Shown here: one piece after another, positions 4,480 through 57,357 of the stretch | Position numbering within the stretch: position 1 is the stretch's first letter | Layout of the letters: each line of letters begins with the position of its first letter | Origin: an uncultured Erysipelotrichaceae bacterium | GTDB taxonomy: Bacteria > Bacillota_I > Bacilli_A > RF39 > UBA660 | Length of the DNA stretch: 57,357 bases | Reading direction: 5' to 3' | Assembly (NCBI GenBank): GCA_902773675.1 | Contig: CACYFN010000008.1 | Span: 1-57,357 of the forward strand | Notes under the pieces: generated by a model | The model's database searches: none | What the model was told of the DNA's origin: nothing | Seen by the model: the letters and a program-made list of their open reading frames with translations, nothing else | Translations under genes and position numbers: made by a program

Positions 4480-4494
4480 AGATAGGAGGAAGAT

Positions 4495-6315
4495 ATGAAA
4501 AAGAAATTATTAATTGCTGTTTTACTTTTAGCTGTTACTTTTTTAGGTATTAAAACTTCTAAGGTATTAGCTGAAAATGGTCCTTATCCAGGAAGTGCTG
4601 GAATGGCATTTTACAATACAGAAGATAATACTGAGACAATTCTTTTTAGTGCTGGTACTGTATTCAATGATGCTTTTAAAGGTGCTACTTATGATAAAGA
4701 TTCAAATACTTTAACTCTTGATAATGTTAAAACTGCTTTATCTTTAGAGTATGCAGGTATGGGGGATGATTTTAAAATCAATTTAGTTGGTGACAATGAA
4801 ATTGGTTATCTTTCAAGTTATTCTTATGGGTATGGAAGCAATATCAACATTGTAGGTAATGGTTCACTTACTATTAACAAAAATAAAGCAATGGAAAGTG
4901 GTATATTCTTTAGTTCAAGTGGAGTTAAAGGTAAAATTACAGTTGCAAATACTGCTACATTAAAAGTTTATGGAAGTGAATTTGCTATTGGTGTTGAATA
5001 TTCAGAAGAATCTGATGGAAGTAAGGTTTTTGATTTTAAAAATGGACAAGATATTTCTGATAGTATTAAATCTAAAGAAATAACTATGCAAGATACCAAA
5101 TCATTTAGAGGAATATTACTTGTACCAAATTATAATAATTCTGTAGATAATTATACATTGGCTACTAAGGATGGAAAAAACTATGCTGTTTCTGTTTATA
5201 GTTCTTATTATGTTCAAAATCAGGTTGTTTTATATCATGAAGCAAGTAAAACATATTTTATGGATCCAACAAGTAGTAATGGTGCGTTTAATGAATCATA
5301 TGATTCTTTAGAAGCATTACAAGCTGCAGGATATACTCTTACAGATACTCAAATTACTATTGCACGTTATACTTCATTATATGGGGCAGTTGCTGCTGAT
5401 CAAAATGGAAAAGAGTATGCATATTATACAACTAATTATAATGGTACTCAATTATATTATGTTTGTGATATAACTAATGATACTGTTACTTTAGCTGATG
5501 GTAATCAATATGCTCTTGCAATCTATAATGAAGATATAGATTTTAATACTTTGACTCCAGTTGTTGAAAATAGGAGTGAAGGGTATGAACATATTGTAAA
5601 TTTAAAAGAATTAGAGATTTTACCTGGTTCAAGTAGTTCAAGTGTAGAAGAAGCAGTAAGTGCATCTGATAATAAATCAGATAATGATAAAGCTGCAGCT
5701 AGTGCTGTTAATACTTTATTAGAAGCTGCTAAAAATGGTGAGGCTGTAGTTGGTATGTCTAAAGAATTAATTAGTGCTATTAATGAAGCTGTAGAAAATG
5801 GTGATGATGTAACAGTTGAATTAGATACTACTAAAATGGAACTTAAAGATGTATCTGATGAAGTAAAAGCTAAAGTAGAAGCTAAAATTAAAGAAGAAAA
5901 AACTTTAAAAGATTCTAATGTACTTGGATATTTTGATATTAATTTAGTTGTTAAAATTAATGGTGATGCATTAGATGAAAAAGTAACTGATTTAAAAGAA
6001 GAAATGGAAGTTAAATTAGATGTTAGTGAACTTGTTAAAAATTTACCTCAAGTTGCAAGTGGTAAAGTTAGACAATATAATGTTATAACTATCCATAATG
6101 GTGAAGTTAAAGTATTAAAAGGTACTTTAAATAGTGATAATACTTTATCATTTAAGACTAATGGTTTCTCTTCTTATGTTGTTACTTATACTGATGTAGA
6201 TGCTGATAGTGTTAATCCTAAAACATTAGATAATATTGGTAGTTATCTTGCTGTATTAGTTTTATCTATTATTGGATTTGCTGCAACTTTATATTTAAAG
6301 AAAAGACATAATTAA
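4495..6315 (+). CDS. Secreted surface protein with NPKTLD wall-anchor-like C-terminus
   Basis: A 606-residue protein with a clear signal peptide (MKKKLLIAVLLLAVTFLGI, cleavage probably after VLA near residue 26). The next 120 or so residues look like a parallel beta-helix carbohydrate-like repeat domain (DSNTLTLDNVKT..., INIVGNGSLTINKNKA). A middle beta domain follows, then a charged domain around residues 395-575 that is rich in Asp/Glu/Lys. The tail is NPKTLDNIG, a hydrophobic helix and KKRHN. That layout copies an LPXTG sorting signal but with NPKTLD in place of LPxTG. It has its own promoter and an operator-like repeat. Ligand and function are unknown. Confidence 0.6.
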   Translation: MKKKLLIAVLLLAVTFLGIKTSKVLAENGPYPGSAGMAFYNTEDNTETILFSAGTVFNDAFKGATYDKDSNTLTLDNVKTALSLEYAGMGDDFKINLVGDNEIGYLSSYSYGYGSNINIVGNGSLTINKNKAMESGIFFSSSGVKGKITVANTATLKVYGSEFAIGVEYSEESDGSKVFDFKNGQDISDSIKSKEITMQDTKSFRGILLVPNYNNSVDNYTLATKDGKNYAVSVYSSYYVQNQVVLYHEASKTYFMDPTSSNGAFNESYDSLEALQAAGYTLTDTQITIARYTSLYGAVAADQNGKEYAYYTTNYNGTQLYYVCDITNDTVTLADGNQYALAIYNEDIDFNTLTPVVENRSEGYEHIVNLKELEILPGSSSSSVEEAVSASDNKSDNDKAAASAVNTLLEAAKNGEAVVGMSKELISAINEAVENGDDVTVELDTTKMELKDVSDEVKAKVEAKIKEEKTLKDSNVLGYFDINLVVKINGDALDEKVTDLKEEMEVKLDVSELVKNLPQVASGKVRQYNVITIHNGEVKVLKGTLNSDNTLSFKTNGFSSYVVTYTDVDADSVNPKTLDNIGSYLAVLVLSIIGFAATLYLKKRHN

Positions 6316-54972: not shown

Positions 54973-57357
54973 ATGAAGAAATTTTTTAGTTTTATTATAT
55001 TATTATTTACTATTTTTGTCGGTTTAGATGTTGTTAAGGCAGATGGTAATATTGAGATAACTGATGTTTCGTTAATAGATAAATCAAATGATACTATTTT
55101 TAATGTTTCTAGTTTTGAAGGCTTAAATTTAAATATTAATGCTACTATTTATAATGTTAATGATTTTTTTAAGTATAAAATTACATTAAAAAATAATACT
55201 GATGAAAATTTGGTAATTGAAGATATTACTGATAATAATGAAATTGAATTTATTAATAATTCATATTCTTTTTCTCAATCTGACTTTAAGGTTGGAGAGA
55301 GTGTTGAAGTAGTAGTAACTACTAAATATGTTAAAGAGATTACTAGATATAAAGAAAATTATAATAATAATTTAATTATTATTATTAATTATACTAATGG
55401 AGAAAGTACTACTATAGTTAATGATAATAATCAAGTAACGGATAATTCAGATAAATTAAATGATTCTGATGATTTAAAATTAGATAAGAAAGATAGTTTG
55501 AATAATTCTAATAATCCTAAGACATTAGATGATGTTTTTAATTATATTATTATTTTTACTATTTGCTTGGTTTTATTAATTATTCTTGTTGTAAAGAATA
55601 AAAAGATAAGATATATTTGTTTATTTTTTGTATTATTTTTATCTATTTATAATATTAAAGCTATAGATGTTACTATTAAAGTAAATAATAATCTAAATTT
55701 GGAATTATATGGTTCAAAATATAATTTGGTTGAGAAAATTTTGAGCAAGAAAAATGATTCAGAAGTTAATTATAATAATGGTAATAAGAAAGAAGTATTT
55801 ACTTTTAATCATGCTAAAACAGATCAAACTGAAGCACTTACTGATTATAGATATATTGGAAAAGATAATAATAATTATGTTTATTTTAATTGTTCTGATG
55901 AATTAGATCCTAGTACGTGTGAAATATGGAAAATAATAGGGGTATTTAGTGTTGATGATGGAAATGGTGTATTTGAACAAAGAGCCAAAATTGTTAGATT
56001 AAATGCATTTAATGATTATATGCCATGGAATACTGGAGAAACTAATGATTGGGCTACTGCAAGCTTAAATAAATTTTTAAATGGTGATTATTATAATAGA
56101 AGTGGTGATGCTTCTGATTATGGATTAAAAGAATCGGCACGTGAAATGATTGATGATGCAGTTTTCTATTTAGGTGGTACTAAGCTTGATTATGATACAA
56201 CAACATTAGGAAGTGTTGAAGAAATGTATGCTTGGGAGAGAGGTAATAAAGTATATACTAAAGAATCATACTGTGAGCATTCTTCTGCATATATTTGTTA
56301 TCCATCATATTGTAATAGCGATTCTTATAAAACATTGTGTAATTATTATAATGCAGCTAAAAATTCAATAGGAAAAGTAGGATTATTGTATCCAAGTGAT
56401 GCTTTTATGATTTATGGTAAAGGTGTTAATGATGAATGTTTTGATAATCCTTATGGATGTTTTAAGGATGGATATAATAATTCAATTTTAAATGATGAAT
56501 GGTTAAGAGATGGTTTTTTTATAAGTCCTCTCACTAATCGTCCTGATGAGGTTTTTTATGGTAATTACAGTTATTTAAATTATACTTATTCATATATGTA
56601 TTGTGCATATGGACCAGGATGTTCAGAAGTTAGGAAAAGAGTTTATCCAACAGTTTATTTAAAACCTGATGTATTTACTATAGGTGGTACAGGTAGTTTA
56701 GATAATCCATATCAACTTTTATATGGTGATGAATATGTTTCTTCAAATTATGTTTATTTTGAAAAACCTAATGAATGGGCTAATCCTTATGCATATTTAA
56801 CTGGTGATTATGAAAATAATTGGCCTGGTATTAAATTAAGTCAAGTTACTGGTAATATTTATTCATTTAGAATAAAAAATAGTATGATTCCTGAAGAAAA
56901 AAATATAGATGAACTAAATTTACAAATTCAATTTAATAATGGAGGAAGTACATATAATTCTGATAGTAAATATAAATATAAATTAAGTAAAGTTAACTTT
57001 GATGGGGTTAATAAAGTTTATAAAGTTACAGAAGGAAGTACTACTACAGATGAACAATCTATTGGTTTTTGGTATGATTATGAAAATAAAGAAGTATTAG
57101 GTAGAATTTACTTTAATGTACCTTCTACTTGGAATTATCCACATGCTTACCTTTATAGAAATAGCGATAACTTAGAACCATTTGGTAATTGGCCAGGAAT
57201 TGAACTTACAAAATATAAAGATAATACATATTATTTTGAAGTAACTAGTGATATGATAGATGATGATATAACTAATTATAGTGTTGTATTTAATAATGGA
57301 GGAAGTTATTATAATCAAAGTGATGCATCAAAGAAATATAAGTTAAGTGATGTAGAA
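54973..57357 (+). CDS. Large fused surface protein with internal anchor-like segment and CBM26-like starch-binding modules (3' end outside window)
   Basis: The frame is open for 795 codons to the window edge. Residues 1-23 are a signal peptide (KKFFSFIILLFTIFVGLDVVKA). An ectodomain follows to about residue 175, then NPKTLDDVFN with a membrane helix and VVKNKKIRY, which copies a C-terminal wall-anchor signal. At once a second signal-peptide-like helix follows (YICLFFVLFLSIYNIKA), and a long second ectodomain: a Cys-containing domain with WNTGETNDWATASLNKFLNG and VYPTVYLKPDVF. Two carbohydrate-binding modules end it (VYFEKPNEWANPYAYLTGDYE / NNWPGIKL and IYFNVPSTWNYPHAYLYRNS / GNWPGIELT), of the CBM25/26 starch-binding type. 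It reads as a fusion of two secreted proteins and probably binds alpha-glucan at the cell surface. Confidence 0.65.
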   Translation, partial: MKKFFSFIILLFTIFVGLDVVKADGNIEITDVSLIDKSNDTIFNVSSFEGLNLNINATIYNVNDFFKYKITLKNNTDENLVIEDITDNNEIEFINNSYSFSQSDFKVGESVEVVVTTKYVKEITRYKENYNNNLIIIINYTNGESTTIVNDNNQVTDNSDKLNDSDDLKLDKKDSLNNSNNPKTLDDVFNYIIIFTICLVLLIILVVKNKKIRYICLFFVLFLSIYNIKAIDVTIKVNNNLNLELYGSKYNLVEKILSKKNDSEVNYNNGNKKEVFTFNHAKTDQTEALTDYRYIGKDNNNYVYFNCSDELDPSTCEIWKIIGVFSVDDGNGVFEQRAKIVRLNAFNDYMPWNTGETNDWATASLNKFLNGDYYNRSGDASDYGLKESAREMIDDAVFYLGGTKLDYDTTTLGSVEEMYAWERGNKVYTKESYCEHSSAYICYPSYCNSDSYKTLCNYYNAAKNSIGKVGLLYPSDAFMIYGKGVNDECFDNPYGCFKDGYNNSILNDEWLRDGFFISPLTNRPDEVFYGNYSYLNYTYSYMYCAYGPGCSEVRKRVYPTVYLKPDVFTIGGTGSLDNPYQLLYGDEYVSSNYVYFEKPNEWANPYAYLTGDYENNWPGIKLSQVTGNIYSFRIKNSMIPEEKNIDELNLQIQFNNGGSTYNSDSKYKYKLSKVNFDGVNKVYKVTEGSTTTDEQSIGFWYDYENKEVLGRIYFNVPSTWNYPHAYLYRNSDNLEPFGNWPGIELTKYKDNTYYFEVTSDMIDDDITNYSVVFNNGGSYYNQSDASKKYKLSDVE

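Follow-up and report, generated by a model that had tools for sequence, protein, structure and literature searches.

The window analyzed here, a 57,357-nucleotide contig (CACYFN010000008.1 of assembly GCA_902773675.1) from an uncultured Erysipelotrichaceae bacterium, closes with a gene for what looks like an anchored surface protein that continues, past its anchor, into a second secreted protein. Is this join an accident, or does the gene encode a single precursor that is exported and cut into two products? An initial annotation of the contig had favored the first answer. The evidence below leads us to the second: the gene probably encodes a polyprotein precursor from which signal peptidase I and a class B sortase release two products, a beta-sandwich anchored to the wall and a passenger separate from it. 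We infer the cuts from the conservation of their sites.

Results

One reading frame holds two signal peptides and an internal sorting signal

The frame is uninterrupted from its start, which lies downstream of an AGGAGG, Shine-Dalgarno-like motif, to the end of the contig at 57357 (Table 1). The sequence gives the order of its parts as a first signal peptide, a beta-sandwich, an anchor made of an NPxT motif, a transmembrane helix (TM1) and basic residues, a second signal peptide, and a passenger. The initial annotation had read the frame in the same way, as an anchor-like segment leading directly into a second signal-peptide-like helix and another ectodomain, and the residues (177–212) and position (about 55600) that it gave agree with those of NPKTLD, the helix, and KNKKIR. 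Read from the window sequence, a second hydrophobic stretch (about residues 214–226) precedes NIKA (227–230), after which 565 residues remain; they include two CBM26 modules and a domain that many other proteins of the genome also have. The starch-binding modules that had been predicted were confirmed by Pfam, which places two CBM26 stretches in the passenger (E 5.7e-17). In an AlphaFold model of the full-length protein, residues 185–208 and 212–226 form helices; its mean pLDDT is only 46.7, too poor for reading inter-domain contacts.

The shared passenger domain recurs many times in the genome, for example at L042:2015-3658, with several copies at contig ends. In one protein that we scanned, a copy stands behind a BsaA-type SipW-dependent domain (TIGR04090).

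Table 1. Features of the fused gene and one comparison protein. Column counts refer to 50 aligned proteins.
Feature	Position	Strand	Remark
Fused gene, open at contig end	54973..57357	+	795 codons seen
Signal peptide 1, residues 1–23, ...VVKA	54973..55041	+	Ala23 column kept in 49/50
First ectodomain, predicted eight-strand beta-sandwich, residues 24–146 modelled	55042..55410	+	pLDDT 86.2, pTM 0.80
NPKTLD sorting motif, residues 181–186	55513..55530	+	N, P and T columns 48/50 each
TM helix 1 of internal anchor, residues ~187–207	55531..55593	+	hydrophobic, helix in model
Basic loop KNKKIR, residues 208–213	55594..55611	+	loop net positive in 50/50
Internal signal peptide, residues ~214–230, predicted cut after Ala230	55612..55662	+	Ala230 column 49/50; matrix test
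First 40 passenger residues, putative docking strand	55663..55782	+	co-variation with beta-sandwich
Passenger domain common to other proteins of this genome, residues ~261–582	55753..56718	+	
CBM26 module 1 (limits approximate, by eye)	56749..56988	+	two CBM26 stretches in Pfam scan
CBM26 module 2, residues 712–778	57106..57306	+	Pfam scan
Ordinary protein with terminal NPKTLD anchor, comparison only, outside fused gene	4486..6315	+	

The join recurs in three paralogs and across the family

The initial annotation had read the join as an apparent loss of a stop codon and had named, as a result that would overturn its reading, relatives with two separate genes together with a sequencing error at the junction. 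The window does sit at the end of a contig in a draft genome (92% complete, 94 contigs), where a recent stop loss or an error in this contig might be suspected. However, an identical join is found in 49 other aligned proteins, three of them paralogs in the same genome and 46 encoded by 26 other genomes; we therefore reject both forms of accident, to which we give practically no weight.

In its own genome, a profile of the module that precedes the passenger matches only four fused copies, the window and the three paralogs (E≤1), which share 24–33% identity with the window over the module. The paralog passengers are repeat proteins, with PARCEL repeats (TIGR02167) in the one scanned. Some match to the module was found in 82 of 386 sampled genomes of the family. 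From 60 regions fetched around such matches, together with the four copies of the window's genome, we obtained 50 aligned proteins that carry the whole module in frame with varying passengers, from 16 genera and 27/386 family genomes, a lower bound as the search scores only some candidates per genome. These 50 proteins are relatives, so the counts given here and below are not independent. The initial alignment held 52 proteins, from which L132 was removed since its hairpin, though present, lies beyond a 330-residue cut, and L133 since it has one TM helix and no second signal peptide. Starts were picked by script, three by hand (L100, L115, and L118). Two module copies (L094 and L137, the latter of 214 aa) fell below the length filter, none of L139–L150 passed the hairpin filter, and two alignments used in the analysis, A3 and A9, hold 46 and 47 of the 50 proteins.

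The named relatives are metagenome-assembled genomes of uncultured Bacilli, Firmicutes, Bacillota or Erysipelotrichaceae, and the sample sources, where named, are the omasum of water deer and the rumen or omasum of water buffalo. In a sample of the class (395 genomes), full-length matches were confined to the family. In a sample of the phylum (392 genomes), 11 genomes outside the family matched a profile of the hairpin (the two helices and their loop) at E≤1e-4, and did so only to position 35–45 of 54. Among the hairpin matches listed, at least 42 reach position 49 or beyond without a stop, 38 from the 50 proteins and four new; by eye, three of the new ones (L222, L223, and L225) have the same kind of first domain, and L224 has another. 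Five hairpin proteins found later (L132, two in L222, L223, and L225) and the two in L224 stand outside the 50. A search of viral contigs found no relative. A contig scan with the window protein gave no match, and one with a closer subgroup gave eight loci, at least five of them apparently in genomes already sampled.

Several individual loci are worth recording. Two adjoining genes at L224 (1-1010 and 1104-2627, minus strand, genome G171) each encode a first domain unmatched by the module profile and, in the one scanned, by Pfam, followed by NPxT, TM helix, basic loop, second signal helix, and passenger; this is perhaps a second origin of the arrangement. At L094:6503-7120 (minus strand, genome G391), a module copy has an in-frame TGA within TM1 that stops the frame at 205 aa, and intact relatives of it are known. 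Fused genes also occur as tandem pairs (L039:4122-8512, L099:1152-3319, L104:1242-9765, and L222), an arrangement that could ease the exchange of passengers.

We looked for a two-gene version in ten further regions, most of them picked because the hairpin profile crossed a stop, and found none; in every anchor examined there, the frame after the stop lacked a signal peptide. One of these regions, L249, encodes a protein that ends in an anchor and weakly matches both parts of the module. An ancient fusion of two genes is a possible origin of the join.

The internal signal peptide retains a predicted cleavage site

The six most conserved columns of the 50 proteins are N74 of the beta-sandwich, the alanine at –1 of both predicted signal peptidase sites (49/50 each), and the N, P, and T of NPxT (48/50 each). 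At the internal site, every one of the 50 proteins has V, I, T, or A at position –3, and 40 have a proline at –7 to –4. The site has the features of a signal peptidase I substrate, namely a basic n-region, a hydrophobic core, and small residues at –3 and –1, and the source genome has four Peptidase_S26 matches.

We scored candidate sites with a 15-position matrix trained only on N-terminal signal peptides, leaving out the protein under test; the training peptides come from the very proteins being tested. The best site after TM1 coincided exactly with the conserved internal alanine in 43/50 proteins. In 43/50 the internal site scored higher than any position in TM1, and in 45/50 higher than any site elsewhere in the chain, signal peptide 1 and the hairpin excepted. 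In the window, the internal site scored 14.4, the protein's own N-terminal site 10.6, and the best TM1 position 5.5. The seven misses of the matrix (L099 twice; L101, L106, L124, L127, and L130 once each) count against the polyprotein reading, as do the two L104 proteins without NPxT and the variants at L139, L137, and L133.

Could the whole chain instead remain uncut, looped through the membrane as a hairpin of two helices that leaves both ectodomains exposed, as the initial annotation had considered for translation as one chain? In favor of this form, both helices are hydrophobic and the turn between them, on the inner side, is basic, and in two variants (L139:1130-4285 and L137:1095-1739, minus strand) the second TM helix lacks an Ala-x-Ala-like site. 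An uncut hairpin, however, leaves no evident purpose for the alanine at –1 (49/50), the restricted –3 position, or the nearby proline, and we regard this form as unlikely. Nucleotide changes between two pairs of paralogs were uninformative for the hairpin. The L137 protein is, in addition, almost without a passenger.

The passenger might also be made separately, by translation starting within the junction. Some ATG, GTG, or TTG is present in the junction of 25/50 proteins, but none of the 50 has a Shine-Dalgarno-like 4-mer upstream of it (the comparison figure for N-terminal starts, 37/50, is biased, those starts having been chosen partly by such a motif), and the window's junction has no start codon at all. 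An internal start is not supported by these data and is very improbable.

The internal anchor resembles the terminal NPxT anchors of the family

A whole NPxT is present in 46 of the 50 proteins and SPKT in two, giving [N/S]PxT in 48; the sixth residue of the motif is Asp in 28. Two L104 proteins have neither motif and keep the internal alanine. Terminal anchors collected by script from loci of the family consist of NPxT, a TM helix, basic residues, and a stop, over 31–39 residues, and the internal anchors resemble them, with a signal peptide in place of the stop. The window has the NPxT before a TM helix and basic residues (NPKTLD, TM, KNKK) that characterize a class B sortase substrate, placed elsewhere than at the C-terminus: 609 codons follow NPKTLD, and the signal is likewise not C-terminal in the other aligned proteins. 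Five proteins of the genome have a sortase domain, and the two scanned are of class B, both above the TIGR03064 cut-off.

These motifs bear on a further alternative, in which signal peptidase acts alone, releasing the passenger and leaving the beta-sandwich in the membrane on its hairpin, with NPxT unused. The L104 proteins would fit such a scheme. Against it, [N/S]PxT is kept almost throughout the alignment and NPxT works as a terminal anchor elsewhere in the family, and we judge cleavage by signal peptidase alone quite improbable.

The beta-sandwich matches small secreted proteins by profile

Searched at E≤0.1, the window module matched no Pfam family, camelysin included, and for this reason we did not file it under CalY/TasA (camelysin). 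Pfam names among 46 members of the module family (E≤0.1) were few and weak, with LPXTG_anchor in eight and Gram_pos_anchor in three. A sequence search of solved structures returned one match, at E 3.5. Comparison of the modelled beta-sandwich with known structures listed, with a best Z of 8.3, integrin, adaptin ears, and sandwiches of the MSP type. Foldseek gave no match at E≤0.001, and TasA was absent from the best 50 rows of each structural list, an absence that carries no weight against a match. In a profile comparison, the beta-sandwich matched small secreted proteins from this bacterial family (hhalign 99.2%, E 1.4e-19, 106 columns). By eye, several of these small relatives precede a SipW-like peptidase, and the camelysin match of one reaches 17.6 bits, under the Pfam cut-off of 22.5.

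Passengers vary, and their first residues co-vary with the beta-sandwich

All 47 complete passengers lack an anchor or TM helix within their last 60 residues, and a TM-like stretch occurs anywhere in the passenger in 1/50. Passengers are mostly repeat or adhesin-like: across the 50 proteins, we found Flg_new in 21, Flg_new_2 in 18, DUF285 in 14, and Big_2 in five, with LRR_5, Y_phosphatase3, and DUF6273 in three each and CBM26 in one. Y_phosphatase3, a tyrosine phosphatase family, is unusual cargo for a surface module.

In the 887 of 1225 protein pairs whose passengers show no other relation by BLAST, the more alike the beta-sandwiches, the more alike the first 25 passenger residues (rho 0.28, reached by 0/500 label shuffles). 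The BLAST filter first used took in the passenger only from residue 40 and so partly forced the limit found. We repeated the analysis on 44 proteins with filters beginning at 0, 100, and 130, with the same outcome: a signal at residues 0–25 (0/100 shuffles each), a weak one at 25–50 (1–3/100), and none from 40 on (≥17/100). Shared descent with unequal rates could also produce such co-variation.

Because the first passenger residues co-vary with the beta-sandwich and later ones do not, and because the beta-sandwich is profile-related to small secreted proteins and strand donation is known between TapA and TasA, we tentatively suggest a self-docking split adhesin, a possibility to which we would give rather long odds. 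The N-terminal beta strand of the freed passenger would insert into the wall-anchored beta-sandwich in donor-strand style, and passengers would be exchanged by recombination behind about residue 40.

Discussion

In the polyprotein reading that we favor, export would begin at signal peptide 1, halt at TM1, and restart at signal peptide 2. Signal peptidase I would cut behind both signal peptides, outside the membrane, and a class B sortase would cleave NPxT and link the beta-sandwich to the cell wall, leaving a hairpin remnant in the membrane. The products would be a wall-anchored beta-sandwich and a separate passenger in a 1:1 ratio. In the weakest step of this scheme, the anchorless passenger may dock to the beta-sandwich and so stay on the cell surface.

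Parts of this arrangement have precedents. Signal peptidase also cuts known polyproteins at a signal sequence within the chain, as in Bradyrhizobium cytochrome b/c1 FbcH and at the flavivirus envelope junctions. Like these, the window protein has an internal signal peptide behind a stop-transfer helix and would give two products per chain, but FbcH and flavivirus polyproteins are not known to carry a wall-sorting signal, and the likeness drawn here is one of architecture. The protein resembles NPxT surface proteins anchored by sortase in its signal peptide and ectodomain, in its NPxT, TM helix, and basic residues, and in the presence of class B sortases in the genome. It differs from them in that the sorting signal is followed by another signal peptide and an entire ectodomain. 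One study describes the sortase sorting signal as C-terminal, class B sortases as acting on NPQTN-like and (P/S)PKTG signals, and NPKTG as a poorer substrate of the C. difficile class B enzyme (PMC5118464).

PARCEL/DUF285, InlB-repeat, and LRR surface proteins are frequent passengers here and, unlike their known forms, stand behind an internal anchor and signal peptide; PARCELs are described as spreading by horizontal transfer and intra-genomic shuffling (PMC2996958). In matching small secreted proteins of the family by profile, the beta-sandwich recalls the SipW-dependent small beta-sandwich proteins. In that group, TapA is described as donating its N-terminal strand to TasA (PMC10151520), whereas strand donation here is our suggestion. 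A literature search, thin on subscription papers, found no description of a sortase acting with an internal sorting signal, a second signal peptide, or a polyprotein, and a search on bacterial signal peptidase, internal signal sequences, and polyproteins gave no title on bacterial surface proteins.

In the proteins described here, a sorting signal sits within the chain, immediately ahead of another signal peptide. The arrangement spans at least 16 genera of an uncultured gut lineage and is combined with many kinds of passenger. Annotation could readily take genes of this type for unusual membrane proteins or erroneous fusions. Should the cuts prove real, the gene encodes a bacterial surface polyprotein that yields two exported products one to one, and it raises the question of whether sortases accept internal signals. 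If docking also proves true, one module would display many anchorless passengers on the wall.
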